Assembly: GCF_016811075.1 (NCBI RefSeq)
Contig: NZ_JAFBGL010000002.1
Location: 455,050-519,049 of the forward strand
Direction: 5' to 3'
DNA length: 64,000 nucleotides
Source: Oceaniferula flava
GTDB lineage: Bacteria; Verrucomicrobiota; Verrucomicrobiia; Verrucomicrobiales; Akkermansiaceae
Positions 10,527 through 49,345 of the stretch are shown here, piece by piece. Under the pieces are notes generated by a model. It was not told where the DNA came from. It searched no databases and was given only the letters and a program-made list of their open reading frames with translations. Made by a program: the position numbers and the translations under genes. Every line of letters starts with the position of its first letter. Positions within the stretch are counted from its first letter, which is position 1.

Positions 10527-10616
10527 GGAGGGATGGCTGAGTGGTCGAAGGCGCTCGATTCGAAATCGAGTGTGGCAGGAATGTCACCGTGGGTTCGAAT
10601 CCCACTCCCTCTGCCA
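10527..10616 (+). tRNA. tRNA-Ser (anticodon CGA)
   Basis: The sequence folds as a class II tRNA with a long variable arm. The acceptor stem is GGAGGGA with TCCCTCT (first pair G-U). The D arm begins GGCTGAGTGG. The anticodon stem is CTCGA/TCGAG around the loop TTCGAAA, giving anticodon CGA. The variable arm is GTGGCAGGAATGTCAC and the T arm GTGGGTTCGAATCCCAC. A genomic CCA end is encoded at 10614-10616. It reads the serine codon UCG. Isolated from other tRNAs in this window. Confidence 0.95.
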
Positions 10617-26279: not shown

Positions 26280-26900
26280 TTAGAGGAAGGGATTGCCCGA
26301 TCGTTCTCTGCCGATGCTGGTCTCGAATCCATGTCCGGGGAAAATCCGGGTGTCTTCAGGCAGGGTGAGCAATTTCTCACGGATGCCGGTCAGCAGCAGT
26401 TTCTGGTCACCGCCGGGGAGGTCCGGACGACCAATGCTGTCGGCAAATAGAGTGTCACCGACAAAGGCCAAAGCCGGCCCTGAGTCATCGTTCTCACCGG
26501 TGATGAAAACAATGCTGTCCGGCGAGTGCCCGGGCACATGTTCGATGCGGAAAGTCATGCCCCCCGAAGTCAGTTCACGGCTGTCGACGAGCACATCGTC
26601 GATCCGGTAAGGAGCCACTTCAATCGGCATGCCCCATTGCTCACGAAAGTTCTCCAAGGTCAAATCTTTGGAATACTCGGCAAAGGCGCGGATTTTCACT
26701 CCCTTGGCGGCCAGTCGGGCGACGTCCTCGACGTGATCGTAGTGCTGGTGGGTCAGCAGCAGTTCGCCTGGAAGTTCGCCTTCTTGCTCCAGCCAATCAG
26801 TGACGCCCGATGGCGCGTCGATTAACACGCTGTGCTCGCCCTCGCCCAGGAGGTAGCCGTTGGTCATCACCATGCCGCCGATGTATTTTCTAATCTTCAT
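26280..26900 (-). CDS. MBL-fold metallo-hydrolase (glyoxalase II-like)
   Basis: The 206-residue protein from ATG 26900 ([19 protein letters not shown]) has the binuclear zinc motif [10 protein letters not shown]. Further metal ligands are in [28 protein letters not shown] and PGHGFET. The size and the GDTLFxxSIGRxDLPGG segment put it in the YcbL/glyoxalase II-like branch. Substrates range from S-lactoylglutathione to persulfides; none can be assigned. Upstream ATGs at 26939 and 26966 would add residues not typical of the family. It is divergent from recA, sharing the 189-base intergenic region. Confidence 0.85.
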
Positions 26901-26998
26901 GTGCGGCGGAAGCATGCGCAGGATGGCGCGCCGGGTCATGCTAATTTTTGGGGGAAATGTGTGCACTTAAGCGATTCGATCCGGCATTCAGGTGAACC

Positions 26999-27012
26999 TG
27001 TTCTCTATAACA
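26999..27012 (+). promoter_or_regulatory. Candidate LexA (SOS) box upstream of recA
   Basis: TGTTC-TCTA-TAACA matches TGTTC-N4-GAACA, the LexA motif I recall being described for Verrucomicrobia, at nine of ten fixed positions. It lies 77 bases upstream of the recA start. A separate GAACA occurs at 27023. recA is the most regularly LexA-controlled gene known. No lexA gene is in the window. Confidence 0.5.
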
Positions 27013-27089
27013 CTAATCTAGTGAACAGTTTTTTATTGACGCGTCCGAATCGCGATGGCAGGCTTCGGAAAACCAAAAACACCATTGTC

Positions 27090-28241
27090 ATGAGCACAGC
27101 AGCCGCTAAACCTAATTCCGCATCCGCCGCCGATCTTGCCTCTCCCACCCAGGACGCCAAGCCGGCCAAAAAATCAACCACTGCCGACAAGGCATCACCG
27201 AAAAAATCCATGGCTACCAAATCCAATGACGCCGACGACAAACTCGCCGCAGCCCGTAAGAAAAATCTCGATCTTGCAATCTCTCAAATCCAAAAAGACT
27301 TCGGCGAGACCGCCATCATGCGCATGGGCGACGGCCACCGGGTCGATGTCGATGTCATCCCCACTGGCAACTTGCTGATCGACCGTGCTCTCGGTGTCGG
27401 TGGTTTCCCTCGTGGACGGATCGTGGAAGTTTACGGCCCAGAATCCTCCGGTAAAACCACCCTCACCCTGACTGCCATTGCCCAGGCCCAGAAAAAGGGA
27501 GGTCTGGCTGCCTTCATCGATGTTGAGCACGCACTGGACCCCGCCTACGCCGCCAAGCTCGGGGTGAATATTGACGATCTCTTAGTTTCCCAGCCGAACT
27601 CCGGTGAGGAAGCCCTGCAAATTTGTGAAACCCTGGTGCGCTCCAATGCCATCGATGTGGTGGTTCTGGACTCCGTGGCCGCGCTGGTCACCAAGCAGGA
27701 ACTGGCCGGGGAAATTGGCGACAGCACCGTCGGCACCCAAGCGCGCTTGATGAGTGCCGCCATGCGGAAGCTCACCGCCTTCATTGCCAAGGCCCGCACC
27801 ACCTGCATCTTCACCAACCAGATTCGTGAAAAAATCGGCGTCATGTTCGGTAGCCCGGAGACCACCCCAGGTGGCCGTGCGCTGAAGTTCTTCGCCTCTG
27901 TGCGCGTGGACATCCGCCGTATTTCCCAGATCAAAGCGACCGATGGCACCATCCAAGGTAGCCGCACCCGCATCAAGGTGGTGAAAAACAAGGTGGCCGC
28001 CCCCTTCAAGGAAGCGGAATTCGATATCATGTATAACGAGGGAATCTCCTCAGTCGGTTCCCTTCTGGACCTCGCACTCGAGTTCGACATCGTGCAAAAA
28101 CGCGGCAGCTGGTTCAGTTATTCAGGCAACCAACTGGCGCAAGGACGCGACGGCGCCAAGCTGGCGTTGAAAGAAGATGCCGCGCTCTACGAAGAAATCG
28201 AGACCAAGGTGAAGGAAGCCATGGCTGCCGACAAAGACTAA
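27090..28241 (+). CDS. recA: Recombinase RecA with a ~50-residue N-terminal extension
   Basis: RecA polymerises on single-stranded DNA, drives strand exchange and triggers LexA self-cleavage. The core is intact: Walker A GPESSGKT at residues 116-123, [10 protein letters not shown], Walker [10 protein letters not shown], and the L1/L2 loops ending in [22 protein letters not shown]. The product has 383 residues from ATG 27090 ([16 protein letters not shown]). The first ~52 residues are a low-complexity Ala/Lys/Ser/Thr/Asp segment absent from E. coli RecA, whose Walker A starts at residue 66. Longer upstream frames reach back to 26832, but their sequence overlaps the divergent gene and promoter. 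A LexA-like box lies upstream and a strong terminator follows. Confidence 0.96.
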
Positions 28242-28532: not shown

Positions 28533-30113
28533 TTATTCATCCAGTGTGACTTCAATTCGGAAGAAACGTTCGCTTCCTGATGGGGCCAAGGTCAGGGTCA
28601 CTTGTTCGTATTCCGCATTGATCGCTGAGATGCTGGTGTTGCTGATCATTGCGCTGGCGTCGGAAAAACTATCGATCGCCAAGGTGCTGGATGAAGTGAG
28701 TTGATAGGTGATAGCTCGGTCGGCATAATCGATCCGACGCACATAGCTCAGCGTGTAGCTTCCGCCGACAAGCTGGAATTGGGGCAGCAAGCTGATGTTT
28801 TCTCCAGCGACCAAGCGCGAAGCTACCGCAGGATCGCCACCGAATACGTATTCTAACAAATTACTCACGCCGTCGTGATCATCATCACCGGTCACCGAGG
28901 GGTCGCTGAGTCCCAAGGACCAGCTGAGAAAGGATTCCATCACATCGATGGTGAAACTTTCGCTGACTTCGGAAGACTGGTCGGAACGATAAGTCACCGT
29001 GTGAGTGTGGCTCCCAGCGATGGGGATGGAGAGTGTGAGACTGTAATCGGTATTTTCACTCGTGTCGATGGAGGCCCGTCTCGCAGCAATGAGCGTGTTA
29101 GTTGATTCATCAAACCAGCTGCTACCTGACGCAGAGCTCACGGAGTAGCTGGTGGAGAGGCTGTTCTCAAGCTTCACATTCTCAGCCATGGAGCTGCCCG
29201 TATTTCCGAGGTTCAAGCCGATGGTGAAGTCATGGCCGGCTCGGATGGTTGTGCTCGGTGGAGTGTGGCTTAGAACTAGCGTGGTACTGCCGGGGATGGC
29301 CTTGGTCATTCGGTAGCCCGTGCTCTCCATCACCACGTTGAGTTTATCGACGTAGTGGGGAATGAAGTTCGAGTAATTGAGGTAGTTTGTCCCTGCTGGT
29401 GTAGTGACCGAGGATAATAAACTGTTGGTTCCGACGATTGCCGCGACTCCATTTTGATCAACAAAGACGGGACTACCGGAGTCTCCCGTTTCGAAATAGC
29501 AGCCGTCTTCGTCATTGCTGCGGACAAGATAATCGAACCTCAATACCCGCGTTGTGTTTAGGTTACTGACTGGAGAGTCAGTGATTTGAGCAATCGTGCC
29601 AGCTCCTCCTCGAGTGGTTTTGCCAAGCACGATCAGAGACTTGTTGTAGTATGATAACTCTCGATCGTAGTTCAGGTATGGATGGTAAGTGATGGCGTCG
29701 CTGTCTGTGATCGCGGTGTTAAGTGTTCCGATGAATAAATCGGAGTTCTCTCCTTCGTCATTGGTGATATTAGTCTGAGTTGCCACCGTGTAATCTCGAA
29801 GGACTCCATTCTTATCCAAGAATCTTAGCGTGGCACCCACACCGGGTCTGTAGTGGTTCGCTCCTACAAAATGTAGTGGAGAAACCATGGCCAGTTGCCG
29901 TGATGTGGTCGTGGTGTGCCAGGCCACTCCTGTGAGGTCATAAGCCGCATGGATAAAGTTGGCGTTATGACTCGGAGCACTTGAAAAGTTGAGAAAACGC
30001 AGATGTTTGCTTGCATCATATTCCGGCATCACCAGAGCGTGACTAGTCGAGCTAGCCAAGAGAGGGATGCTGATGATCAAGTGTCGTGTGTGTGAAAACA
30101 CCTTCGATCGCAT
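28533..30113 (-). CDS. Secreted trypsin-like (S1) serine protease with C-terminal accessory domain
   Basis: The 526-residue protein has a signal peptide (HLIISIPLLASSTSHA). A chymotrypsin-fold domain covers about residues 30-260. The catalytic His is probably in MVSPLHFVGANHY, the Asp in NSDLFIGTL and the Ser in ETGDSGSPVF. A CARDB-like beta domain (~280-395) follows. The C-terminal part begins with DDDHDGVSNLLEYVFGGDP, a calcium-type motif common before the last beta domain of secreted verrucomicrobial proteins. It probably acts outside the cell or at its surface. No PEP-CTERM or sortase-like tail is present. Confidence 0.75.
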   Translation of the reverse strand: MRSKVFSHTRHLIISIPLLASSTSHALVMPEYDASKHLRFLNFSSAPSHNANFIHAAYDLTGVAWHTTTTSRQLAMVSPLHFVGANHYRPGVGATLRFLDKNGVLRDYTVATQTNITNDEGENSDLFIGTLNTAITDSDAITYHPYLNYDRELSYYNKSLIVLGKTTRGGAGTIAQITDSPVSNLNTTRVLRFDYLVRSNDEDGCYFETGDSGSPVFVDQNGVAAIVGTNSLLSSVTTPAGTNYLNYSNFIPHYVDKLNVVMESTGYRMTKAIPGSTTLVLSHTPPSTTIRAGHDFTIGLNLGNTGSSMAENVKLENSLSTSYSVSSASGSSWFDESTNTLIAARRASIDTSENTDYSLTLSIPIAGSHTHTVTYRSDQSSEVSESFTIDVMESFLSWSLGLSDPSVTGDDDHDGVSNLLEYVFGGDPAVASRLVAGENISLLPQFQLVGGSYTLSYVRRIDYADRAITYQLTSSSTLAIDSFSDASAMISNTSISAINAEYEQVTLTLAPSGSERFFRIEVTLDE

Positions 30114-36824: not shown

Positions 36825-38657
36825 ATGAATATCTACAAACAACTCATCCTCGCTATGGCGATGTTAGGGACTGTGATCACGGCGATCGCGGCACCCGAGG
36901 TTAGCCTGCACAGCTCAATGTCGGCGAAGACATTTTTTGTCGGTGAGGAGTTCCAATTTGAAATCCTCGTCAGCCCCGCAGATCGCGTGGACATCGAAGA
37001 AGTCGAGAGCACTGACGATTTGGCCATCCAGTTCGTTAAAAAGGAAGTGGTCAAAGGAGATGCATTTTCCACCGTCGCGTTACGCTACCGGATGATGCCG
37101 ATGAGTGCCGGCATGGTGGCCATTCCACCGATTTCCGTGGAGGTGGGTGACCAGGTTTTGAGCACGGATGAGGAAATGTTCATTCAGGTGAAGCAGGCAC
37201 AAACCTATCCAGGGTTGGAGATCGTCAGGGAGATCCCTGATCGAGATTTCTACGTCGGCGAACCTTTCATGGTCGATTACACATGGCGGTCGCCGTTGCC
37301 GCTCAATGGCTTTCGCGCGGTGAAATTGAACCTGCCTTTGTTCTACGATCCAGCCTTTAAAATCCGGAACCCCTTCGACTGGATTGATGGCGACGACAAG
37401 GCGGCGATCGGTCTGCCGGTGGCCAACACGCGCTTGATTGGGAGATATAACCTGCTCAACGAAGCCGAGCGAAATGTGCACAGCGTATCCTTTGCCAAAA
37501 TCGTCATCCCAGTGAAGACCGGTGAGTTTGAGTGGTCGCCAAGCACCCTGCTGATCTCCTACGTTGCCCCGCCCGCCGCGCGCAATCGCAATGCACGCTG
37601 GCGAACCAACTACCCGAGCTACTTCAATAACAACTTCTTCGCGGAGGCTGACGGGGACGAGTATCAGAAGTATTTCGCCGCTTCCAGCTCCCAAACTGTG
37701 CGCGTGCTGCCGCTGCCGGATGCCGGCAAGCCTCACGACTTTGCCGGAGTGGTTGGCTCCTGCAAGGTGACGGTCACCGCCACCCCCACGGTGCTGCAGG
37801 CAGGGGATCCGATCACTCTGACGATCGTGGTCGATGACTATGCCTTCCCTGAGGTGTTAGATTTTCCTGACCTCTCGTCGCAGCCCGCCTTTACCCGCCA
37901 GTTTGCCATTCCGCCCCGGCAGTCGTCAGGCCGGATCGTGGGGAAAAGGAAAACCTACATCCGCACGCTTCGCCCACTGGCTCAGGACGCGACATCCATT
38001 CCGGCAGTTCGGATTCCGTATTTTGATCCTCAGACGAAGTCCTACGCGGTGGCCGAATCCGCACCGATACCGATCACGGTGAAGGCCGCCGAGGTGGTGA
38101 CCGCCTTCGACGCGGATATGACGGGAGTGGGGCCCTTGAAGAATCGGTTGGCGAAAAATCCGGAAGGGATCCGCGCCAATGCCACCTCGCTCAGCGCGAT
38201 CCGGCCCGCTGCTTTTTCTCCCGGCGCCTGGCTGCTGCTCTGTCTGTTTTTACCGCCGGCCGCGTTTCTGGTTTTCTATTTCGCCACGGCCCAACGCCGA
38301 CTGATGCAAAACGATCCGGTGCGTGCCAGATCGATGCGTGCGATGGCCCGCTTCAGCAAGCGACTGCGTGCGCTTGAACAAGCTGCTCCGAAGCTTCAGC
38401 CGGAGCAGGGGATCGGTCGGCTCGACGACATCGTGAGGAGCTACTTTGCCGAAAAACTCAACCTCGTCCGACACGCACACACCTTCGAGGAGCTTGAACT
38501 CCAGCTGGGAGATCGTGTTTCGTTAGATGCGATTCGCGAAATCTACGGCCGCTGTGAAGCGCAGGCTTACCGAGCCGACAGTCCCACGCCCGACCTATCC
38601 ACCATGATCGCACAAGCTCGCCAAGCGGTCCAAACCATCAACGCCGCCTTATCATGA
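36825..38657 (+). CDS. batD: BatD-family membrane protein
   Basis: The 610-residue protein from ATG 36825 has a signal peptide (LILAMAMLGTVITAIAA). Tandem beta domains follow (PEVSLHSSMSAKTFFVGEEFQFEI, GLEIVREIPDRDFYVGEPFMVDY, CKVTVTATPTVLQAGDPITLTI). One membrane helix (WLLLCLFLPPAAFLVFYFA, about residues 470-490) precedes a cytoplasmic helical domain. This is the BatD layout. Its role in the complex is unknown beyond a link to oxidative or envelope stress in some species. The stop overlaps the batE start (ATGA). Confidence 0.85.
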   Translation: MNIYKQLILAMAMLGTVITAIAAPEVSLHSSMSAKTFFVGEEFQFEILVSPADRVDIEEVESTDDLAIQFVKKEVVKGDAFSTVALRYRMMPMSAGMVAIPPISVEVGDQVLSTDEEMFIQVKQAQTYPGLEIVREIPDRDFYVGEPFMVDYTWRSPLPLNGFRAVKLNLPLFYDPAFKIRNPFDWIDGDDKAAIGLPVANTRLIGRYNLLNEAERNVHSVSFAKIVIPVKTGEFEWSPSTLLISYVAPPAARNRNARWRTNYPSYFNNNFFAEADGDEYQKYFAASSSQTVRVLPLPDAGKPHDFAGVVGSCKVTVTATPTVLQAGDPITLTIVVDDYAFPEVLDFPDLSSQPAFTRQFAIPPRQSSGRIVGKRKTYIRTLRPLAQDATSIPAVRIPYFDPQTKSYAVAESAPIPITVKAAEVVTAFDADMTGVGPLKNRLAKNPEGIRANATSLSAIRPAAFSPGAWLLLCLFLPPAAFLVFYFATAQRRLMQNDPVRARSMRAMARFSKRLRALEQAAPKLQPEQGIGRLDDIVRSYFAEKLNLVRHAHTFEELELQLGDRVSLDAIREIYGRCEAQAYRADSPTPDLSTMIAQARQAVQTINAALS

Positions 38658-39448
38658 GACGATTGTTCCTCCTTATTCTCACTATGCTTCCGCTCGGCTT
38701 GCTGGCCGCGGAGCAAGACGACCAGCGCCTTTTCACCGAGGCCAACGACCTCTTTGCCCGCGCCAATGCCGAAGCCCTGGTGAATCCCAGCAAGGCTCAG
38801 GAACTCTATCAGGCATCGATTCTCAAATACCAATTCCTGATCGAGCAGAGAAAACTCAACTCCGCCGAGCTGCAAATGAACTTGGGAAATGCCTACTTTT
38901 CCTCCGGTGAAACTGGTCGGGCAATGTTGCACTACCAGCGGGCTCAGGCCTTGGACCCTTTGAATGATGAGGTCCGACACAATCTCGAATACGTGAGATC
39001 GCTCACCATTGATGAACTGCCTGAAACCACCATGCAGCGGGTGAAACATGCACTGAGCTTTTGGCACCGCTGGCCGGTGGCGCTGAGGGGATCCTTGTTT
39101 GCTGTCGGTCACCTGAGCTTTTGGGCGCTGGTGGCGTGGTCGCTCTACCGCCGTGGCCGCTGGCTCTACGGTGGCTTGGCTGTTAGTGGATTGCTGAGCG
39201 TGCTCTTTGGCGTGTCGCTGCTCGTCAGTCACCAGGCCTGGGACAATCCGGTGGATGGAGTAGTGGTCGAGCGCGAGGTGATCGCGCGTCAGGGGGATGG
39301 TATCATCTACGACAATGCCTTCAGCTCGCCGCTGCATGCCGGCACCGAGTTCGAGGTGTTAGAAAGACGAGGTGACTGGTATCACATCCAGTTGCTCAAC
39401 GGCGACAGCTGTTGGCTTCCGACGAATAGTTCGGAGTTAGTTCGCTAG
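38654..39448 (+). CDS. batE: BatE-like TPR and SH3 membrane protein
   Basis: The 264-residue protein has a signal peptide (LFLLILTMLPLGLLAA) and a short TPR region (LNSAELQMNLGNAYFSSGETGRAMLHYQRAQALDPLNDEVRHNL). Two membrane helices (FAVGHLSFWALVAWSLY and LYGGLAVSGLLSVLFGVSLLV) follow, then a C-terminal bacterial SH3 domain (EFEVLERRGDWYHIQLLNGDSCWLP). It closes the Bat operon. A decayed second copy of this SH3 end is found at 43371-43496. Confidence 0.82.
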   Translation: MRRLFLLILTMLPLGLLAAEQDDQRLFTEANDLFARANAEALVNPSKAQELYQASILKYQFLIEQRKLNSAELQMNLGNAYFSSGETGRAMLHYQRAQALDPLNDEVRHNLEYVRSLTIDELPETTMQRVKHALSFWHRWPVALRGSLFAVGHLSFWALVAWSLYRRGRWLYGGLAVSGLLSVLFGVSLLVSHQAWDNPVDGVVVEREVIARQGDGIIYDNAFSSPLHAGTEFEVLERRGDWYHIQLLNGDSCWLPTNSSELVR

Positions 39449-39587
39449 AGCTCTCTGTTATGGATCCTGCCTCGATTTGACTTTAAAGTCATCAGCTCAA
39501 TCATTGTGGTGAATGCAGGTGCAGTCAAGGTTAGCGGTCGCATCTCGGCTCAGCCTCTTTTCATGGGAGACCGAGCTTTTGACGAGT

Positions 39588-39631
39588 AAAAAAAATGCGT
39601 GTACACGATCTAGTTAGACCATGTGCACGCA
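39588..39631 (-). terminator. Terminator of the minus-strand PEP-CTERM gene
   Basis: Read on the minus strand, TGCGTGCACA and TGTACACGCA form a 10-bp stem (one G-T pair) directly followed by eight T residues. It lies 34 bases past the stop codon at 39665. The loop is rather long (16 bases). Confidence 0.7.
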
Positions 39632-39664
39632 AAAATGCCCTCAGTAAAGAAGACTCTTGCAGAA

Positions 39665-40225
39665 TTAGGCTGCTTTTTTACGTTGGCGGCGGGTGAGGAG
39701 GCCCGCGGAGCCGAGTGCGAGGAGCGCGAGGCTGGAAGGCTCTGGGACACTGTCAATCATGGCTTTGCCTTCAGAGATACTTAGAGCCTCTCCTGTATCG
39801 TTGGTGGCAACGGCGACCAGATAACCTCCACCCAGTCCATCGAAGTAGAATTGGGCGACGGCTTCATAGACATTGTCGTTTCCATCGAATGAGAGGTTTG
39901 CGTAGTTTTGGTCTCCTGCGCTAGCTCCGTAGCCTAAGCTGCCAATGAAGTAATAGCCCATGCCGTTTCCAGATCCTACAGCGAGGTCAGTACCACTCGT
40001 GAAGTATGTACCACCAGAGAAGTTAATACGAGTTACGTATCCGCCGTCCAGCGCTAGGCCATTACTGGGCTTCCGGATACTGATCCCGGTGGGGGTAGCT
40101 GGGTCCGATGTGATGTTTTGTGCTCCGGGCCCATAGAAGGTGATCGCTCCTTCAGCCATGCTGGCCGCACAACCAACCCCAGCAGTCATGGTGAGGTAGG
40201 TTCTTAGTGTATTTGTTTTGTTCAT
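39665..40225 (-). CDS. PEP-CTERM anchored secreted protein
   Basis: From ATG 40225 the product has 186 residues with a signal peptide (TYLTMTAGVGCAASMAEGA). The mature domain is Gly/Tyr/Asn-rich (ITFYGPGAQNITSDPATPTG) and the C-terminus is SVPEPSSLALLALGSAGLLTRRQRKKAA. It is an exosortase-type surface or exported protein of unknown function. A perfect 10-bp hairpin lies 27-47 bases upstream of the start codon in the presumed leader. Confidence 0.82.
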   Translation of the reverse strand: MNKTNTLRTYLTMTAGVGCAASMAEGAITFYGPGAQNITSDPATPTGISIRKPSNGLALDGGYVTRINFSGGTYFTSGTDLAVGSGNGMGYYFIGSLGYGASAGDQNYANLSFDGNDNVYEAVAQFYFDGLGGGYLVAVATNDTGEALSISEGKAMIDSVPEPSSLALLALGSAGLLTRRQRKKAA

Positions 40226-40249
40226 TTTTTTGTTTTGCTTTTTTATAGT

Positions 40250-40272
40250 CCCTCCTCCGTGCATCGGAGGAG
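40250..40272 (-). promoter_or_regulatory. Leader hairpin upstream of the PEP-CTERM gene
   Basis: CCCTCCTCCG and CGGAGGAGGG form a 10-bp stem around a five-base loop. No T-run follows on either strand, so it is not a normal terminator. On the minus strand its 3' arm contains purine-rich GGAGGAGGG, a strong anti-Shine-Dalgarno match held in the stem, but it is about 27 bases from the start codon, too far for direct use. Confidence 0.4.
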
Positions 40273-40434
40273 GGGAGATTGGTGTTGAGAATGTCATCCA
40301 GCGGCTTAGCCCTTAGCGTAGGGGCTGGGAGAGCCTGTCGGTTGCTTTCAGTGATCCGCTATGGCCAGACCAACAGCAGTGGGAGAAGTCGCGCGGTGTT
40401 GAGGTGAGGGAAAGTGCCTTTCTTGACATGATGT

Positions 40435-43137
40435 TCAGGACATGGCCGGTGCCACTTTATTTCGATGGAGATCGGGACGGATGGCTGACACGAGTTTTTC
40501 GGGAGCCGAGACATCTTCTCCGAGAAACGCGATGAGTCGTGGGATTTGCTCCATCGGGTTTGCGACGAGCTCAGGGTAGTCGATTTCGAGAAGATCCACA
40601 TCCTGGCGTTGGCGTAGTCGGGTAAGGATTTGGTCCTTGTGGGTTTGTTGCGTTTGGATGAGGTGTTGTTTATCGGAACGGGGGGCACTGCCTTGTCGCT
40701 CGAGCATTTTCCATTGGGAATCGACGACCTCCTCGACCGGGCGCTTCATGAAGATGATGCGGTAGTGGTGGCGGGGAGGGAGTTGAGGGATGAGGGCGGA
40801 GATGACTTTGATGGCCTTGCCATTGGCTTGCTCGATGAGACGGGGATTTTTTTTGAGCGATTTGATTTCTTCCCATTCCCAGTATCCTTCGAGGTTGTCT
40901 TCATCGGCGTGGCGCTTGCCATCGTGCATGAGTTCCATGCCGGCAGCGCGGAGCATCTGCATCATCAGCGAGGTGCCGGAGCGCGGCAGGCCTGAGACGA
41001 TGGTGAAGGAGCATGGCTCACTGGCGGCTTCCTCGGCTGCTTTTTTGGCGGCTGCTGCCCGCAGAGCCTTACGTTCTGCGTGGCGTTCTTTGGCGCGGGC
41101 GGCGATGCCGTGACGGAGGGATTGGAGGTGTTTTTTGTATTCGGAGGCTTGTTTGATTTTGATGCGGACTGCGTTGGCTTCGAGCGTTTGGGCTTTTTCT
41201 GTGTTACCCTGCCGTTGGTAAACGGTGATGAGGGATCGAGTGGCGACAGGGTGGTCTGCGTCGAGTGTCAGGGTGTTTACGAAGGCGTGTTCTGCTCCCT
41301 CGAGATCGTTCAGTGCAAGAAGGGCGGTTCCCAGGATGGTGTGGGCACGGGGGGAGGCAAACTGAAGGCTGATAGCGGCGAGGGCGGTTTCTGCGGCAGC
41401 GCTGTAGTCTTTTTGGATGAGTTGGCAGCGGGCGCGGGTGAAGTGGGCCTGGATGTTGTTAGGATCTAATCGGAAAAGGGTATCGGATAGTTCGCTGGCT
41501 TTTTCAACCTGCTCTAAAGCAATGTAAGCACGACACATCAGCTCAAGAACGGGAACTTCCTCCGGAGCCTGGGCGAGGGCAGCTTCGAGGTGCTTGAGGG
41601 CGGATTCGGGATGACCTTTCTCAAGTTCGATATGGCCCTGTAGGATCAGTGCGGCAATATTTTTACCAAAGGCTTCGAGGCAGATTTCCAGAGTTTCCTC
41701 CGCCTCGGTGGTGAGGCCGAGGGAGAGTTGGCACTTGGCAAGGGTTTGAGAGTAGTCGGTGCGTTCCGGCGAGGCATTGAAGCAGTCTTCCAAGAGCGGA
41801 AGGGCTCCTTCGTATTTACCGCTGTAGAGAAAGGCGCGGGCCATGTTCCACTTGTTCTCGCGATTGGTCTCGGCCGCGGCTTCAGTGGGGTCGGAGGAAA
41901 CTTCGTCAATGTATCCAAGGTCGACGAATTGTTGAAGCAGGGCTTCACTTTCTTGCTTGCTGAGGGAGCCACGCTGCTGCTGGATGCCATTGGGATCTTC
42001 CCAGGTGGGGATGCTTTGAATGGGGCGCTGCTGTTCGAAGAGTTCGTTGAGGACACGGCCTTCCATGTCATCTCCGCAGGGGAGATCGAAGTGGTGGAGG
42101 ATCGTGGGAGCGATATCGAGGAGGCGTGCGCCGTGGATTTCTTGTTGGGATTTGATCCCCGGGCCTTTTGCCAAAAGAACGCCCTGCTCGCGGTGCCATA
42201 CGGTGATGCCCGCAGGGATGCGGGGAGTGAACTTCGGGCGCAAGTGGTCTGAGTGAAAGCCGTGGTCGGAAACGAGGATGACGGTGGTCTCCGGTCCGGC
42301 GAGCTGGAGTAGGCGTTGCAACATCATGTCGTGTGCGCGATACGTGCTCTTAACGACGTGCTGATAAATCTCGAAGTCCTCGTCGGGAATGCCTTCCATC
42401 TGAGGAGGATGGTAGTGCATGAAGTGATGAGAGATCTCGTCGATGGCCCGGTAGTAGACGGCCATGAATTCCCACTCCGGATCGGTTTCCATGACGTGAG
42501 TAGCCGCAGAGTGAACCGAGTAAGCTTCGGCGAGGTGTTCGCGCAGACTGTTGAGGCGCTTGTCGCGAGATTGATCGATCTTGTGAGCGTCTGGGATAAA
42601 GGGCTTTAGCATCTCCTCGTCAATCTCGTGGGGACTGACGCGCAGCTCGTTCATCGTCTCCGCGAGATCCTCAGGCCAGTAGGTGCCGGGCATGGGTGCA
42701 GGCCAATCGGCAGGCTCTTGATCAGCAGTCGAGCCCTTGAGATGGCCGAACATATTAGAGACCATTTTGCCATTAAGGTTTTGCTCGCCCTGGGTGGCAA
42801 ACCAAGAGACTACATGAGAGCGAAGATCCTTCTCCCCCAACATTTCCCAGAGGGTTTTGCATTTGCGGGTAGCCGCGGAGACGGGGACGATCTGACCACT
42901 CACTGGATCGACCTCGGTAAAGCCCTGCACACCATGATGATAGGCCATTTTACCAGTGGCAATGGAGGCCCACAGCATGGGCGAAAGCTGGGGTTCCAAG
43001 GTCGCTAAATTACCATAAGTGCCACCATCCATAAGACTACGGATGCCGTTCATTCCTCCTTCTTCGAGCAGGGTATTGATAATTTTCCAGTCTGCAGAAT
43101 CCCAGCCTACCAGTAGAACTTTTTTGTTCGTAAACAT
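40435..43137 (-). CDS. Fusion of alkaline-phosphatase-superfamily phosphodiesterase, TPR repeats and sulfotransferase
   Basis: From ATG 43137 the protein has 900 residues; an ATG ten codons upstream is also possible. Residues ~1-400 form a type I phosphodiesterase/nucleotide pyrophosphatase-like domain: KVLLVGWDSADW (metal Asp), LSPMLWASIATGK (nucleophile region), SDHGFHSDH. About 430-660 is a TPR array (ALPLLEDCFNASPERTDY, ALKHLEAALAQAPEEVPV). From ~705 a sulfotransferase domain starts with the PAPS-binding P-loop TIVSGLPRSGTSLMMQML and continues with the 3'-phosphate site IIFMKRPVEEVVDSQWKML. No signal peptide is visible, so it is probably cytoplasmic. A sulfate- or phospho-group transfer to glycans or proteins is plausible; substrate unknown. 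The neighbours are a PEP-CTERM gene and the duplication scar. Confidence 0.82.
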   Translation of the reverse strand: MFTNKKVLLVGWDSADWKIINTLLEEGGMNGIRSLMDGGTYGNLATLEPQLSPMLWASIATGKMAYHHGVQGFTEVDPVSGQIVPVSAATRKCKTLWEMLGEKDLRSHVVSWFATQGEQNLNGKMVSNMFGHLKGSTADQEPADWPAPMPGTYWPEDLAETMNELRVSPHEIDEEMLKPFIPDAHKIDQSRDKRLNSLREHLAEAYSVHSAATHVMETDPEWEFMAVYYRAIDEISHHFMHYHPPQMEGIPDEDFEIYQHVVKSTYRAHDMMLQRLLQLAGPETTVILVSDHGFHSDHLRPKFTPRIPAGITVWHREQGVLLAKGPGIKSQQEIHGARLLDIAPTILHHFDLPCGDDMEGRVLNELFEQQRPIQSIPTWEDPNGIQQQRGSLSKQESEALLQQFVDLGYIDEVSSDPTEAAAETNRENKWNMARAFLYSGKYEGALPLLEDCFNASPERTDYSQTLAKCQLSLGLTTEAEETLEICLEAFGKNIAALILQGHIELEKGHPESALKHLEAALAQAPEEVPVLELMCRAYIALEQVEKASELSDTLFRLDPNNIQAHFTRARCQLIQKDYSAAAETALAAISLQFASPRAHTILGTALLALNDLEGAEHAFVNTLTLDADHPVATRSLITVYQRQGNTEKAQTLEANAVRIKIKQASEYKKHLQSLRHGIAARAKERHAERKALRAAAAKKAAEEAASEPCSFTIVSGLPRSGTSLMMQMLRAAGMELMHDGKRHADEDNLEGYWEWEEIKSLKKNPRLIEQANGKAIKVISALIPQLPPRHHYRIIFMKRPVEEVVDSQWKMLERQGSAPRSDKQHLIQTQQTHKDQILTRLRQRQDVDLLEIDYPELVANPMEQIPRLIAFLGEDVSAPEKLVSAIRPDLHRNKVAPAMS

Positions 43138-43269
43138 GATGTTGGGCAAATTATTGGAGTCTCCCATGGTCAGTGTCGAGAGTTTAAAAAAAAGATTGGC
43201 AGGTAGTTAAATGGCTCATTATTATGATTAAAGAAGTGATGATTTTTAAGGGGGGGAGCGGGCTGATTT

Positions 43270-43365
43270 CTACCAATTTTTCTGATCGTCTCGATTGTAG
43301 GACGGCCAGACGAGTAAGGATCTTGATGTCTTTTCATAAAGGTTTGATGAGCTCGTTCTTAAACT
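43270..43365 (-). pseudogene. Decayed C-terminal end of the 45877-48303 ATPase gene
   Basis: On the minus strand one frame reads NELIKPL*KDIKI, matching NEVIKPYKKDIDV near the C-terminus of the ATPase. At DNA level TACCAA-N2-TTTCTGA-N-CGTC, GTAGG, GATGTCTTTT and AAGGTTTGAT recur in the same order as at 45878-45970, with small gaps. Similarity continues past the stop into GGGGGGAGC and the preceding GATTTTT run. There are an in-frame stop and a deletion, so it is a remnant. It abuts the batE remnant. Confidence 0.75.
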
Positions 43366-43370
43366 AAATA

Positions 43371-43496
43371 GTGCTGGCATCAAACAGGTCACCCGGGGAC
43401 GAGGTGTCAGGAAAGCGAGGGGAATAGTATCACAATCGGCTGCTCAATGGCGATACCTGCTGGCTGCCTCTCAACAGTGTGGCTCTGGTGCGCTGA
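43371..43496 (+). pseudogene. Decayed C-terminal SH3 end of batE
   Basis: The frame reads RGE*YHNRLLNGDTCWLP and ends LNSVALVR before TGA, against RGDWYHIQLLNGDSCWLP...NSSELVR at the end of BatE (39340-39448). An in-frame TAG replaces the Trp of DWYH and the upstream part cannot be followed past about 43371, where the ATPase remnant begins. No start codon or ribosome site is present. Confidence 0.8.
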
Positions 43497-43653
43497 GACT
43501 TTTTTCAAACTGGGTAGTTTCTCAGGGTTTAAAAAATTAGCTTAGGCTAATTTAAGGCTTGCGCATCTTTTGTGTTTTTGCCAAACAAGCCTCGAGAATT
43601 ATCCGGGGCTAATAATATACCTCTAAGCTATAACTCAAACCCATTACCCTATT
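43497..43653. other. Leader region of the TonB receptor gene
   Basis: Between the batE remnant and the receptor start the DNA is AT-rich. It contains TTAGCTTAGGCTAATTTAA, an imperfect inverted repeat around 43538-43556 (TTAGC...GCTAA). No Fur-type box or known riboswitch could be recognised. Upstream, 43138-43269 holds no gene; its last ~30 bases resemble the region after the ATPase stop. Confidence 0.4.
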
Positions 43654-45792
43654 ATGAAAAGACATCAACGAACTCGAAAACGAACAACGGCGGCTATGGT
43701 AGTTGCCGGGCTGAATTTGGCCGTGCATACTCAGGCGCAGGAAATCCTCGGGGGGCTGGAGCCCTTGGTGGTGACCGGCTCTCACTTTGTCGAGCCACTG
43801 CGAAATGCCCCGGTCCGCACTGAGGTCTATAGCGCGGAGCTCATCGCCAAGGCGGCGGCTCGAAATCTTGCGGAAGCCATTGAAGCGTCTCCCGGCGTCC
43901 GGGTGGCGACCGATTGTGGCAATTGCAACACGCAGCAGATTCAGATGCTTGGCATGCCCCAACAATACATCGGCATCCTCAGCGATGGATTACCGAACTT
44001 TACAGGGCTAGCCGGTGTCTATGGCATCGAGCAGATCCCGGCCGGATTGATTGGTGGCATTGAGGTGGTCAAAGGTGGCGGGTCGGTGTTGTATGGCCCG
44101 AATGCGGTGGCAGGGGTGATCAACCTTCTGCCCCGTGACCCGAATGAAAGCGGCACCATCTTACGAGGACAGATGAGCAATTTCACCGAAGGGAACTCCT
44201 TTGGTCGGGGGCCATCCTACTCTGCTATGTTGCTGCATGATTACGTCAATGAGGATGCCAGTTTCAAGGCGACGATTTACTACAATCACGATTACCTCCA
44301 GCCCGTGGATCTCAATGGCGACGGTTTCACGGACATTTCCGAGCGTCGGCTGCACGCAGCCGGCTTGCGTCTGGTCTGGCAGCCGGCGGATGACCAAACC
44401 TTGAGTTTCGACTACATGTTGACGGATGAAGAGCGTCGTGGTGGTGACGCCGGAGCGGCATTTGAGCGCAGCCCGGACACAAACATCATAGCGGAGGAGC
44501 TGTTTTCCATGCGTCAGGTTGCCACGGTGAAGTGGGACGGTCAACTCAACGAAAACTGGGCTGGCACCTTGGCTTACTCCTTTTCCCAAACCGACCGCGA
44601 CAGTTACTACGGCGGACTCGGTGCCTTTAATACGCCCGATGGTTACCATCCAAACGGCACCCCATTCTGGGCCCCCGGAAGTAGCACGGGCGACACCGGT
44701 TATGGCGAAACCTTGGACCAGCTGCACTTCATCAATGCCCTGGCGATCCATCAGGTGCACGATCAGAACCGTTTCACCTACGGCGCGCAATACCGCTACG
44801 AGAAAATCGAAGACACGGCGGCGAGTGCCACACCACTCACGGATTCGTTTTCCGATGTCGGCATTCTTGCCCAGCACCGCTACACGCCGAACGAATTGTG
44901 GACCTTCGAATACGGCGGGCGAATGGACTTCCACTCGAACTTGGATCAGCCGGTGTTCTCGCCTCGCGGATCGGTGCTCTACACACACAACCAAGACCTC
45001 CGAATCCGAGGTGCTGTTTCGACCGGTTTCCGTGCTCCGGAAGTATTCGACGAAGACCTTCACATCAGTGTCGTCGGTGGTGATGTCCAGGCGATACGGA
45101 ATGCGTCCGATCTCGATGAGGAAAAATCCCTGACCTTCTCGATCTCACCAGAGTGGCAGATCAATGACCAGTGGCGGGTTGAGACCAGCGTTTTCCACAC
45201 CAGTCTCAGCGATACCTTTGTGGTCGGTGGCCCTGACTCCGGTGGTGCTGGTGTCCAGCTGCGCGAAAATGGCAGCGACTCCGCGGTCTACGGGCTCGAG
45301 TTCAACCTCGGCTACTTTGCGGACAACTGGGATGTGCAGTTCTCCTGGGTCGAACAACGTGCCCGCCACGATGATCCCTTTGAGGTGTTTGAAGCGGACG
45401 GAGGGATCGATGCGATTTTCACCGATCGATACACGCGCTCGCCGGAATCGATGGGGCAGCTTCGCTTCACCCACAGGGGAAGCTGGTGTGACACCTACAT
45501 GAACCTCAAACTCACCGGTCCGATGGATGTTCCGCGTCAGCAATTTGCCAGCGACGGCAGCTTGGTGGACCAGAGCCTGGAACGGAGCGACTGGTTCTTC
45601 AACGTCGACATTGGCTTGCGCAAGGAAATCCAATTGGCAAACGATGACTCACTGACCTTGAGTCTGGGCATCAAGAATCTGCTCAATGATTTTCAGGACG
45701 ATTTACCCTCCGGTGCCTACCGTGACCCCGGCTACATCTACGGCCCGGCATTCCCTCGCTCGATCTACGCTGGTGTGAGCTACGAGTTCTAA
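43654..45792 (+). CDS. TonB-dependent outer-membrane receptor
   Basis: The 712-residue protein has a basic, then hydrophobic signal segment (KRTTAAMVVAGLNLAVHTQAQ). A TonB-box-like EPLVVTGS is followed by the plug domain (residues ~45-150: PVRTEVYSAELI, LAEAIEASPGVRV, IGGIEVVKGGGSVLYGPNAVAGVINLL). A 22-strand-type barrel runs to the C-terminal aromatic SIYAGVSYEF. The plug motif DCGNCNTQQIQMLGM resembles Cys-containing plugs of a siderophore/heme/metal receptor branch. The ligand cannot be stated. No transporter genes adjoin. A terminator follows. Confidence 0.9.
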   Translation: MKRHQRTRKRTTAAMVVAGLNLAVHTQAQEILGGLEPLVVTGSHFVEPLRNAPVRTEVYSAELIAKAAARNLAEAIEASPGVRVATDCGNCNTQQIQMLGMPQQYIGILSDGLPNFTGLAGVYGIEQIPAGLIGGIEVVKGGGSVLYGPNAVAGVINLLPRDPNESGTILRGQMSNFTEGNSFGRGPSYSAMLLHDYVNEDASFKATIYYNHDYLQPVDLNGDGFTDISERRLHAAGLRLVWQPADDQTLSFDYMLTDEERRGGDAGAAFERSPDTNIIAEELFSMRQVATVKWDGQLNENWAGTLAYSFSQTDRDSYYGGLGAFNTPDGYHPNGTPFWAPGSSTGDTGYGETLDQLHFINALAIHQVHDQNRFTYGAQYRYEKIEDTAASATPLTDSFSDVGILAQHRYTPNELWTFEYGGRMDFHSNLDQPVFSPRGSVLYTHNQDLRIRGAVSTGFRAPEVFDEDLHISVVGGDVQAIRNASDLDEEKSLTFSISPEWQINDQWRVETSVFHTSLSDTFVVGGPDSGGAGVQLRENGSDSAVYGLEFNLGYFADNWDVQFSWVEQRARHDDPFEVFEADGGIDAIFTDRYTRSPESMGQLRFTHRGSWCDTYMNLKLTGPMDVPRQQFASDGSLVDQSLERSDWFFNVDIGLRKEIQLANDDSLTLSLGIKNLLNDFQDDLPSGAYRDPGYIYGPAFPRSIYAGVSYEF

Positions 45793-45812
45793 ACCCCCTA
45801 CTAAAACCCCCA

Positions 45813-45846
45813 ATCCACCGTCCCGTTCATGGGCGGTGGATTTTTT
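45813..45846 (+). terminator. Rho-independent terminator after the TonB receptor gene
   Basis: ATCCACCG-T-CCC and GGG-CGGTGGAT pair with a one-base bulge around GTTCAT, followed by six T residues. It lies between the convergent receptor and ATPase genes. Confidence 0.85.
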
Positions 45847-45876
45847 GTTAGGGGGGAGCTCGGTGAGAGACGGGCT

Positions 45877-48303
45877 TTACCAAGCTTTCTGACCGTCCTG
45901 ATCGTAGGGGAGCCAGAGTAGCGCGACGGTGCGGACATCGATGTCTTTTTTGTAAGGTTTGATCACCTCATTTTCGAGTTTCACCGTGGCGGGGTTGAAC
46001 TGCTCATCGAGCTCACCGATTTCCTCGTTGAGCTCGGCTTCGAGTTCGGCGATGTCCTCCTCGAGATCAGCGATCTTTTTCTCGGCGATTTTGACATCGC
46101 GGCGTTGTTTGTAAGCGCGGCCGGCGCTGGTTACCGCACTGCTGGATGAACTGCTCCTGCGACCTCCGAAAAGACTGCCTAACAGACCTCCGATGACTTT
46201 GGCTCCGATGTCCCAGGTGGCACTGCTGGCTTCCGCTTCTTCCTTGGCGAGGCTGTTCTCTGCGCGGTCGACTTGGCCTTCCTTGGTTTTAATCTTGGCC
46301 TCGTATTTATCGCGCATTTTTTCCACTGCTTCGTCACGGACTTCACGCGCCTGCGTAGCGAGACGACCACGGAACTCGCCTTCACTCTCGCCTAACTTTG
46401 AGTAGCTCTTAAACAGGGGACAGTAGAAAATTTTCACCCGTTCATTGCGGTAGATGTGATCGGCGAAGTCCTTCTCCACCTGCTTGTAGTTATCCTTGTT
46501 CATGGCAAAGCCGGGGAGCTCACCGAAGTTGCAGCCTTGGCGGGGTTTGGACTTCAGTGATTTGACAGGGTGGGTGCAGCCGGCGTCGTGATCCCAGTCG
46601 ATCCCTTTTTCGCTGATGGCATTGGTGAAGCGCATCAGGCGGGAGTCGTCGATATCACATTTGGACGAGGAGAAATGCACACTCGCCTCCCTGAGCAAGG
46701 CCGGTTTGTAAGTGATGTCATCGGCTTCTCCGGCGAAGGGGACAAAGTACTCGGTGACGCCGGTGCCGACCACTGGACGTTCGCTGGCTCCGCTCTGCGA
46801 GGAGGCGCTGGGCATGGCCATCGGGTTGGACGATTGCGGGGCGGTCTTTTGCTGATCTTTGGCAGCAGGAAATTGGTCACGCTTGGGATCCATCAACTGC
46901 TTGATCTTGGTGCGTGTCAGAGGTCCACAGAGGTAACTCATCACCCAGCGGACGTGGAACACCTCGGGGGCGTCTTCGTGCACGTTGTTCATCAGGAAAA
47001 CACGCGAGCCGAGACCGGCCAGCAGCTCCTCCATGCGGCTACGGTTGAAGCCTCCTTCTTGTGAAGCGGCGGCTCCTTCCAGGCCGTCTAACACACGCGC
47101 CTTGTCTCGCTCGGTTTGCAGTCGACCCAGCCACCAGGTTCCGATGTTAGACAGCGCCTTGTAATCCAGATCCACCGGGTTCTGGGTGGCTAACAGACAG
47201 CCGAGACCGAACGCCCGACCCTGTTTCAGCATGGTCATCATCGGTTTTTTACTCGGTGGATTTGCCGAGGGTGGCAGGAAGCCGTAGATCTCATCCATGT
47301 AGAGCATGGCGCGCAGGCTGGTGGTGCCGCTCTGCGAGCGCATCCACCCTAACATCTGGTTCAGCAACAGGCTGACGAAGAACATGCGCTCGGAGTCGCT
47401 GAGGTGGGCGATGGAGAAAATCGAGATGCGCGGTTTGCCCTCCGGCGTATGCATCATCTTGGCAATGTCCAGTGCCGGGCCTTCCATCCAGGTGGAGAAG
47501 CCAGGGGAGGCGAGCAGGGAGTTGAACTTGAGGGCGAGCTTCTGCCGCTCCTTGGCATTCATGAAGGAATTGATATCGATGACCCCCACCTTATCGAAGG
47601 GTGGCTTTTGCAAATGACGGATCAACGATTCCAGTGAGAGGTCTTGCCCAGCCTGCCAGCAATGGCCGAACAGGGTGCCTAACAAGACAGCTTCAGGGCT
47701 TTGAATCGGGTCGGCATCCACCCCCACCAGGGAGAGCAGCGAGCTGACAGTGCTCTCGATGCGGTCGCCGAGCAGTTCGCCATCGTCCATCACCTCGAAT
47801 GGCGGGCACTCCAGCGAGCTGAGAATGGACACGGGGATGCCGGCCTTGCTGCCGGGAGTGAAGATGTTGATATCGCACTTGTCCTTGAACTGCTGCACGC
47901 GCTCGGGCGACTGCCCCCAGGAGCCGATGCCCTCCTTCCACATCTTGGCCGTTTTCTCCGCATACTCATCCGGACTGGTTCCTTTTTTTGCCGCGTCGTC
48001 CTCATTGATCCAGGGGCGGAAATCGGAACCTTGGAAATCTGGGAAGGTCAGCATCAGGTTTGCAATGTCGCCTTTGGGGTCGATGATGATGGCCGGCACG
48101 TTGTCCATCGCCGCTTCCTCCAGGATGGAAAGGCAGAGGCCGGTTTTTCCTGAACCGGTCATGCCCAGCACCACACCGTGGGTGACGAGATCCTTGGAAT
48201 CATACAGCACCAGATCTTCTTCCAGCTGGCTTTTTTTCAGATCATAACTGCGGCCCAGATAGAATGAACCCAGTTTCTCGTAATCGCTTGTCTTGATTTC
48301 CAT
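45877..48303 (-). CDS. Large HerA/DUF87-type ATPase with C-terminal coiled coil
   Basis: The 808-residue protein carries Walker A GMTGSGKT at residues 47-54, the IIDPKGD segment soon after and Walker B AMLYMDEIYGFLP (~340). LLATQNPVDLDYKALSN is a sensor-like motif typical of HerA/FtsK-type DUF87 ATPases. Residues ~650-770 form Lys/Glu-rich coiled coils (KIKTKEGQVDRAENSLAKEEAE, KKIADLEEDIAELEAELNEEI) with a Gly/Ser patch between. No NurA-like nuclease gene or restriction gene adjoins, so a DNA-end-processing or conflict role cannot be claimed. It starts at ATG 48303. Decayed duplicate of its last ~30 codons: 43270-43365. Confidence 0.78.
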   Translation of the reverse strand: MEIKTSDYEKLGSFYLGRSYDLKKSQLEEDLVLYDSKDLVTHGVVLGMTGSGKTGLCLSILEEAAMDNVPAIIIDPKGDIANLMLTFPDFQGSDFRPWINEDDAAKKGTSPDEYAEKTAKMWKEGIGSWGQSPERVQQFKDKCDINIFTPGSKAGIPVSILSSLECPPFEVMDDGELLGDRIESTVSSLLSLVGVDADPIQSPEAVLLGTLFGHCWQAGQDLSLESLIRHLQKPPFDKVGVIDINSFMNAKERQKLALKFNSLLASPGFSTWMEGPALDIAKMMHTPEGKPRISIFSIAHLSDSERMFFVSLLLNQMLGWMRSQSGTTSLRAMLYMDEIYGFLPPSANPPSKKPMMTMLKQGRAFGLGCLLATQNPVDLDYKALSNIGTWWLGRLQTERDKARVLDGLEGAAASQEGGFNRSRMEELLAGLGSRVFLMNNVHEDAPEVFHVRWVMSYLCGPLTRTKIKQLMDPKRDQFPAAKDQQKTAPQSSNPMAMPSASSQSGASERPVVGTGVTEYFVPFAGEADDITYKPALLREASVHFSSSKCDIDDSRLMRFTNAISEKGIDWDHDAGCTHPVKSLKSKPRQGCNFGELPGFAMNKDNYKQVEKDFADHIYRNERVKIFYCPLFKSYSKLGESEGEFRGRLATQAREVRDEAVEKMRDKYEAKIKTKEGQVDRAENSLAKEEAEASSATWDIGAKVIGGLLGSLFGGRRSSSSSSAVTSAGRAYKQRRDVKIAEKKIADLEEDIAELEAELNEEIGELDEQFNPATVKLENEVIKPYKKDIDVRTVALLWLPYDQDGQKAW

Positions 48304-48496
48304 ATGCGCTATTTGAGAGGGCGCAGGGGGGCTTGAAAAGTCACAAGTTGTGAAAATACTAAAATAAATTTTGAACGTGGTTTGGCTTGAAAAGTCGCTA
48401 ATAGTCAGTCTTTTAAGTGATTTGGTTTAGCGAATTGTTAAGTTTTCTTAAACTTTCGCTTGTCAAAATAAAAGTTTTTAGAATAATGGGGCTGTT

Positions 48497-49345
48497 ATGA
48501 AAACCATCGCCCTAATCTCCACCATGATTGCTCTTCCGGCCGCTTCCCTTTTGGCCCAAGGACAGAGTGAACTCGAAGCTCTGCGTTCCAGAGTCAGCTC
48601 CACCGAGCGTCGAATCGATCTTCTTGAGCGCGAGCTCAGATCTTTGCGATCCGGCACGACCGGTGAACGTGCCGTCGCTCCTGAAAAGGCCGCTCCCGCG
48701 GCCAAGTCGGGCGAATACATCGTGGTTAAAGGTGATATCCTCAGCCGCATCGCCAAGCGTCACAACACCAGTGTGGCCACGCTGAAAAAAGCCAACAATC
48801 TCCGCTCGGACAACATCAGCATCGGGCAAAAACTGCGCATCCCCGGCGCTACGACGAGTCACGCCCCCCGTCCACAAAATCACCAAGCCATTGCCAGCAA
48901 GGCTCCTGCAGCTTCCGGCAAACACGTGGTGCAACGTGGTGAGACCTTCTATTCCATTGCTCGCAAGCACAAGGTGAGCACTCAGTCGCTGATCGCTGCC
49001 AACCCCAAGGTGAGCCCGACCAGCCTGCGTGTGGGCCAGCAGCTGAAAATCGACGGCAATGCCAAAGCTGCGCCGAGCCGTCAGGCGGTAGCCAGTCACA
49101 AGTCGGCTCCCAAAGCCAAGTCGTCCAAGCCAGCTCCATCAAGAAAGCCAGCCAGCACACCCGTGAGCTCCAAGGCACCTGAGCCAGCGATCCGCACCAT
49201 CACGGTGCACGATCAGATGACTTACGGTCAGTTCGCCAGCAAATACGGTGCCAGCACCACACAGCTGAATGCCCTGAACGGCCTGAGCCTGAGCAAGAGC
49301 ACCATGCTCGCCAAAGGATCCGAACTCTACGTGCCGAAAAACTAG
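48497..49345 (+). CDS. Secreted LysM peptidoglycan-binding protein
   Basis: The 282-residue protein has a signal peptide (TIALISTMIALPAASLLAQ) and a short coiled coil (ELEALRSRVSSTERRIDLLERELRSL). Two clear LysM domains follow: EYIVVKGDILSRIAKRHNTS (~residues 74-119) and HVVQRGETFYSIARKHKVS (~137-182). A Lys/Pro/Ser linker and a diverged third LysM-like repeat (TITVHDQMTYGQFASKYGAS) come after. No catalytic domain is present, so it probably binds peptidoglycan as a structural or targeting protein. A strong terminator follows. Confidence 0.88.
   Translation: MKTIALISTMIALPAASLLAQGQSELEALRSRVSSTERRIDLLERELRSLRSGTTGERAVAPEKAAPAAKSGEYIVVKGDILSRIAKRHNTSVATLKKANNLRSDNISIGQKLRIPGATTSHAPRPQNHQAIASKAPAASGKHVVQRGETFYSIARKHKVSTQSLIAANPKVSPTSLRVGQQLKIDGNAKAAPSRQAVASHKSAPKAKSSKPAPSRKPASTPVSSKAPEPAIRTITVHDQMTYGQFASKYGASTTQLNALNGLSLSKSTMLAKGSELYVPKN

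Follow-up and report, generated by a model that had tools for sequence, protein, structure and literature searches.

A scar of two decayed gene ends between batE and a HerA-like ATPase gene of Oceaniferula flava, probably the join of an old tandem duplication

The window analysed here is a stretch of 64,000 nucleotides from the genome of Oceaniferula flava, the assembly of which comprises 3,953,077 bases in 51 contigs; Oceaniferula flavus 5K15T is described as an isolate from kelp (PMC9865893). Within the window, batE and a gene for a HerA-like ATPase face each other with stop codons 6428 bp apart. Their convergence and their ends, at 39448 for batE and 45877 for the ATPase, had been given in an earlier sequence-only reading, and match the coordinates obtained from open reading frames and Pfam. 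Between the two genes lie two blocks of cargo, which we call X1 and X2, and fragments of the 3' ends of both flanking genes. The features are listed below, with the evidence for each in brackets.

38654..39448, plus strand: batE, intact, encoding TPR and SH3-like domains (ORF, Pfam, alignment); the last ~106 bp (from 39343, plus strand) are one parent of the scar (alignment)
39665..40297, minus strand: PEP-CTERM protein gene of X1 (Pfam PF07589)
40435..43167, minus strand: phosphodiesterase-TPR-sulfotransferase fusion gene of X1 (Pfam PF01663, TPR families, PF13469)
43238..43391, minus strand: decayed ATPase 3' end with ~32 bp past its stop codon, the stop being at 43270-43272 (alignments)
43388..43394 (approximate), no strand: join between both remnants (alignments)
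43390..43496, plus strand: decayed batE 3' end, with TAG for Trp and the stop codon TGA at 43494-43496 (alignment, six-frame search)
43654..45792, plus strand: TonB-dependent receptor gene of X2 (Pfam PF00593, PF07715)
45812..45842, plus strand: terminator-like hairpin and T-run 3' of the TonB gene (alignment, hairpin search)
45877..48303, minus strand: HerA-like ATPase gene, intact (ORF, Pfam, alignments); the last ~136 bp (45877-46012, minus strand) are the second parent of the scar (alignments)

Local alignment of the region 43200-43510 with the two intact gene ends identified both fragments. The batE remnant (43393-43497 against 39345-39450) showed 74 identities in 106 columns with a score of 81, which was reached by none of 1000 dinucleotide shuffles, the best of these scoring 39. 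For the ATPase remnant (43238-43357 against 45839-45972), 88 identities were found in 135 columns including gaps, and the score of 82 was again reached by 0 of 1000 shuffles (best, 38). Chance similarity as the source of the remnants was rejected by these shuffles. A six-frame search with BatE detected the batE remnant independently (E = 3.3e-6, 65%, one TAG codon), and the ATPase remnant is decayed, being frameshifted and carrying small deletions and an in-frame stop upstream of the stop at 43270-43272. The scar is real, and the two gene-end remnants pointed out in the sequence-only reading are confirmed, together with their order and strands.

That reading had placed the inner ends of the remnants at 43365 and 43371. 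When the ATPase ends of 11 genomes, including its own, were aligned with it, the ATPase remnant could be traced to ~43391, and the batE remnant begins at ~43390; both boundaries therefore shift inward until the two remnants touch. There is no foreign DNA at the join, and the remnants meet without a spacer. With respect to the intact genes, the strands are kept, the order is swapped and the interiors meet, which is the arrangement of a tandem-duplication join. Around the join, 8 of 10 bases are identical in the parental sequences, and 146 of 5000 random zones do equally well; a weak, short homology at this position is plausible. Homology past the ATPase stop (a T-run and a G-run), which had also been claimed, holds as part of the significant alignment and is weak when taken alone, being equalled by 14 of 500 simple shuffles. 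The T-run of the hairpin at 45812..45842 and the G-run that follows it recur before the ATPase remnant.

We asked how often gene ends are found copied nearby, using the last 45 residues of 374 ORFs of at least 100 codons (51 from the window and 323 from 400 kb of contig C1) as queries within 12 kb. Seven matches were obtained, and only the copy of the batE tail lay outside another ORF, the other six being inside ORFs. A control scan with the first 45 residues gave 10 matches, with 2 outside ORFs, both of a single ORF at the cut end of its stretch. The tail scan undercounts, as the frameshifted ATPase remnant was missed. When the genome itself was searched with 43200-43660, just short matches were found besides the query region, a result that excludes only close copies, since the parental ends were not listed either. 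With the same restriction to close copies, no second scar was seen in 14 genomes of the genus; 10 of these showed some match at E<=1, and the matches were pieces of the ATPase end (G006, G004, G013), a piece of the batE end (G005) or short stretches.

In two other genomes of the genus, G005 and G011, the bat operon and the same ATPase gene are present in the facing order seen in the window. The sequence-only reading had allowed for an old multi-gene interval between the two genes, which is not what these relatives contain: the facing stop codons of the batE-ending operon and the ATPase are 63 bp apart in G005 and 10 bp apart in G011, with no gene in either gap, and these were the only two batE-ATPase genomes found. 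The ATPase gene of G011 is split, leaving one contig with its remainder on another. An ATPase match was present in 11 of the 14 genus genomes and a close batE in four (G000, G011, G005 and G001), with the two genes on separate contigs in G001. Three genomes of the genus have the facing arrangement in common; the interval of 6.4 kb is particular to the window genome. G009, G006, G004 and G012 have one or both of two genes from the left flank of the window (28533-30113 and 26832-28241) close to the ATPase, and a bat operon was not seen there. Among 145 genomes sampled from the family, four batE relatives outside the genus were found at E<1e-40 (G093, G047, G079 and G030, mostly drafts), none of which was seen beside an ATPase match. 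Among loci of reduced-genome members of the genus (L033, L035, L037 and L039), no bat operon was seen beside the ATPase; at L033, from G009, ORFs that by eye resemble pieces of a transposase lie at the ATPase 3' end.

The contents of the two cargo blocks, with PEP-CTERM and sulfotransferase genes in X1 and a TonB receptor gene in X2, agree with Pfam, as had been claimed. No sequence common to X1 and X2 was detectable when each was searched in the other (best E, 0.31 and 0.55), and ten comparisons of their flanks yielded nothing convincing, the best being reached by 8, 14 and 27 of 500 simple shuffles and consisting of A/T- or G-rich stretches. Relatives of the X1 genes are neighbours at different loci of two further genomes, G013, where two PEP-CTERM genes are present along with a third gene, and G128, where the order is the same, indicating that X1 could arrive as a unit. 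Homologues of the sulfotransferase gene are patchy, occurring at E<=1e-150 in 24 of 260 family genomes, including its own, with two in the genus. Those of G050, G139, G092 and G347 adjoin ORFs with similar-looking first residues, as judged by eye, and G042 holds a 90-residue piece of the sulfotransferase (87%), the whole gene being present in G050, which has like flanking ORFs. The TonB receptor of X2 has homologues of 50-56% at E<=1e-100 in 8 other genomes of the 260, two of them in the genus (G003 and G007), and its best relative in the protein collection is at 69%. Because the sister boundaries in G005 and G011 are gene-free, X1 and X2 are most likely gains rather than remains of an old multi-gene interval. 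Of the earlier proposal that each copy had kept or gained different genes, the gain is thus upheld; that genes were kept finds no support in view of the gene-free sister gaps, the lack of detectable common sequence between X1 and X2 and the patchiness of the homologues, those inspected being at other loci.

Among the six proteins encoded from 38654 to 49345, none had a Pfam domain of a transposase or integrase. There is no tRNA gene at the site, the sole one in the window being at 10527-10616, and no Rfam match at the gathering threshold in 39000-46500. An RNA or tRNA integration site was rejected, as neither a tRNA nor an Rfam match was present at the locus.

The descent of the remnants was examined in alignments of the gene ends, taken in full for batE. 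At the batE end, 13 columns were common to the remnant and the window batE alone, compared to 6, 1 and 0 shared exclusively with G001, G005 and G011, respectively, which favours a duplication later than the divergence from the lineages of G005 and G011; under a different alignment setting the counts were 14 columns against 5, 2 and 2. Departures from the majority base of the relatives were found in 17 columns of the intact batE end and 16 of the remnant. By this count the intact batE end has diverged about as often as the dead copy, which is odd for a working gene. Further, the residues KRGE, T and PLNSV of the remnant, at which the window BatE differs, are found in the BatE of Oceaniferula spumae. 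At the ATPase end, no column was exclusive to the remnant and the window ATPase and one was shared with G012 alone; grouping of the remnant, which has a long branch, with the window gene had an AU p value of 0.45. The ATPase remnant departed from the majority base in 29 columns and the intact gene in 8, a difference that decay would produce. Divergence of the remnants roughly equals that between copies from different species of the genus, so that the scar dates the rearrangement, as the sequence-only reading had suggested, only loosely.

We consider it probable that the batE-ATPase boundary was duplicated in tandem long ago in this lineage and that 43238-43496 is the resulting join, with cargo now in both copies of the gap. 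The swapped order and kept strands, the contact of the remnants and the closeness of the batE remnant to its own batE support this reading of the join, which had been put forward from the sequence. The ancestral boundary would have been a short gap between facing stop codons, like the gaps of G005 and G011. The likely event is a head-to-tail repetition of a segment that began ~106 bp ahead of the batE stop and reached ~136 bp into the ATPase 3' end, with short homology as a possible basis. This would have left both genes whole and produced one redundant join of ATPase end and batE end, free to decay, with unrelated cargo now occupying what would be the first copy of the gap (X1) and the second (X2). 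If both copies began alike, at least one cargo would have entered after the duplication, because X1 and X2 share no detectable sequence. The scar requires no function of its own. Recombination between the copies usually removes tandem duplications again, and the join may have survived and stayed readable because unrelated cargo keeps the repeats apart.

By simple arithmetic, two random insertions would strike the separate gaps of 32-63 bp, and not the 242-bp scar, in 2-6% of cases. This makes it less likely that both cargos were inserted after the duplication, and is the main reason why two other explanations stay live. One of these, which we regard as possible and rather unlikely, is a merger of two alleles, in which uptake of DNA from a relative added the relative's interval, with its own cargo, to a resident chromosome whose batE-ATPase interval had the other, the scar being the illegitimate side; integration of a circle and a transformation merodiploid are two routes to such a merger. 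It would place both cargos exactly in the two copies of the gap without coincidence, and it fits the observations that the intact batE end departs from its relatives as much as the remnant does and that the O. spumae BatE agrees with the remnant at positions where the window BatE does not. However, neither batE-X1-ATPase nor batE-X2-ATPase was found among the 14 genomes of the genus, and the 13 batE columns exclusive to remnant and intact gene mean that the donor must be a near sister. There is a minor chance that each interval is the allele of a different lineage and that both have been preserved next to each other as a fossil merodiploid formed by DNA uptake. In that case, a boundary of facing housekeeping genes would be an entry site that stacks accessory genes with no integrase or transposon involved, and a single dead pair of gene ends would be the price. 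The other is the explanation offered in the sequence-only reading, that one or both cargos were already present when the whole interval (2.7-6.5 kb) was repeated, after which the copies lost or exchanged different genes. Placement of the cargos needs no coincidence here either, and a redundant gene copy would, by reasoning, be a large neutral target for replacement. We nonetheless hold it to be improbable, as the gaps of G005 and G011 are without cargo and no trace of TonB was found in X1 or of X1 in X2, even though copies deleted long ago would leave none.

The same order and strands would also result if a longer stretch, comprising the ATPase gene together with much of the bat operon, had been repeated and everything between the ATPase end and the batE end then deleted, making the join a deletion scar. 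Large changes do occur around this ATPase, as seen in the four genomes in which no bat operon was found beside it, but this course needs one more large event, and a search of the own genome with BatE revealed no close copy beyond the tail; we think it very unlikely. That the boundary was never duplicated, and that two independent gene-end fragments or chance similarities lie here, might be argued from the shortness of each remnant alone (~110-150 bp). The shuffles, the contact in the order expected of a join and the rarity of such fragments leave this barely credible.

Some integrative elements insert at gene 3' ends and leave a 3'-end fragment behind, and the fragment of a host gene on the far side of added DNA is also seen here; in contrast, the six proteins of the locus have no integrase domain and the ends of two different genes are involved. 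In insertion with long target duplication, the insert reportedly lies between both copies of the target, whereas here the join is empty and each copy has cargo within it. Such insertion has been reported for restriction-modification genes (Nobusato et al. 2000, as cited in PMC3031569 and PMC4978471) and, as these sources cite it, is similar in that the foreign genes adjoin long direct repeats derived from host genes. Closer are bacterial tandem duplications at short homology, with a head-to-tail repeat, a join linking the interiors of flanking genes and a short similar stretch; in one example the borders are described as having a 9-bp microhomology (PMC11111574). The present case differs in being old and decayed, with its copies parted by unrelated cargo and a homology of only 8 of 10 bases that is weakly significant. 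The scar is new as an instance and ordinary in kind. It makes a case for asking whether genes are gained at facing gene ends, without a mobile element, by duplication or merging of alleles; beyond that question it is ordinary genome wear.

The start of the TonB gene showed a further feature. A perfect 17-bp inverted repeat pairs the ATPase remnant at 43323-43339 with the TonB start codon region at 43652-43668. An inverted repeat of this length was found in 0 of 5000 random sequences of the 471-base stretch, and in 2 of 1000 of the whole 6.4 kb. In likeness to the TonB start, the remnant was beaten by just 2 of 2000 random sequences, and the intact ATPase end by 544 of 2000. RNA of 43310-43690 has a predicted fold with a z-score of -4.1 in which both arms of the repeat are paired, and the N-termini of ten TonB relatives differ, as judged by eye. 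The repeat may be the footprint of a template switch or a chance match. A promoter-like site at 43196-43225 was no better than chance (6 found, 3.4 expected).

The X1 genes belong to a recurring neighbourhood of the Akkermansiaceae, in which the phosphodiesterase-TPR-sulfotransferase fusion is accompanied by one or two short PEP-CTERM genes and often by a third gene without an NCBIfam match. It was seen at 39665-43167 of the window and at loci L137 and L177 and, by eye, at L134, L176, L179 and L180, and its PEP-CTERM genes share an N-terminal stretch of the LGxYLAxTxG kind. The neighbourhood perhaps unites an enzyme with its substrates; a literature search found no paper on a pairing of sulfotransferase and PEP-CTERM genes. 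An Akkermansiaceae MAG encodes a relative (P0241) of the fusion protein of the window (40435-43167) at 91%, the best for batE being 68% among the matches listed. Shortened ATPase genes were also observed in the genus g9 (G033, G139, G133, G042 and G050), where approximately residues 5-82 adjoin 748-808 and the middle is missing. The one at G033:C56:4952-5365 is a single open frame of 144 codons, and several of the others contain stop codons.
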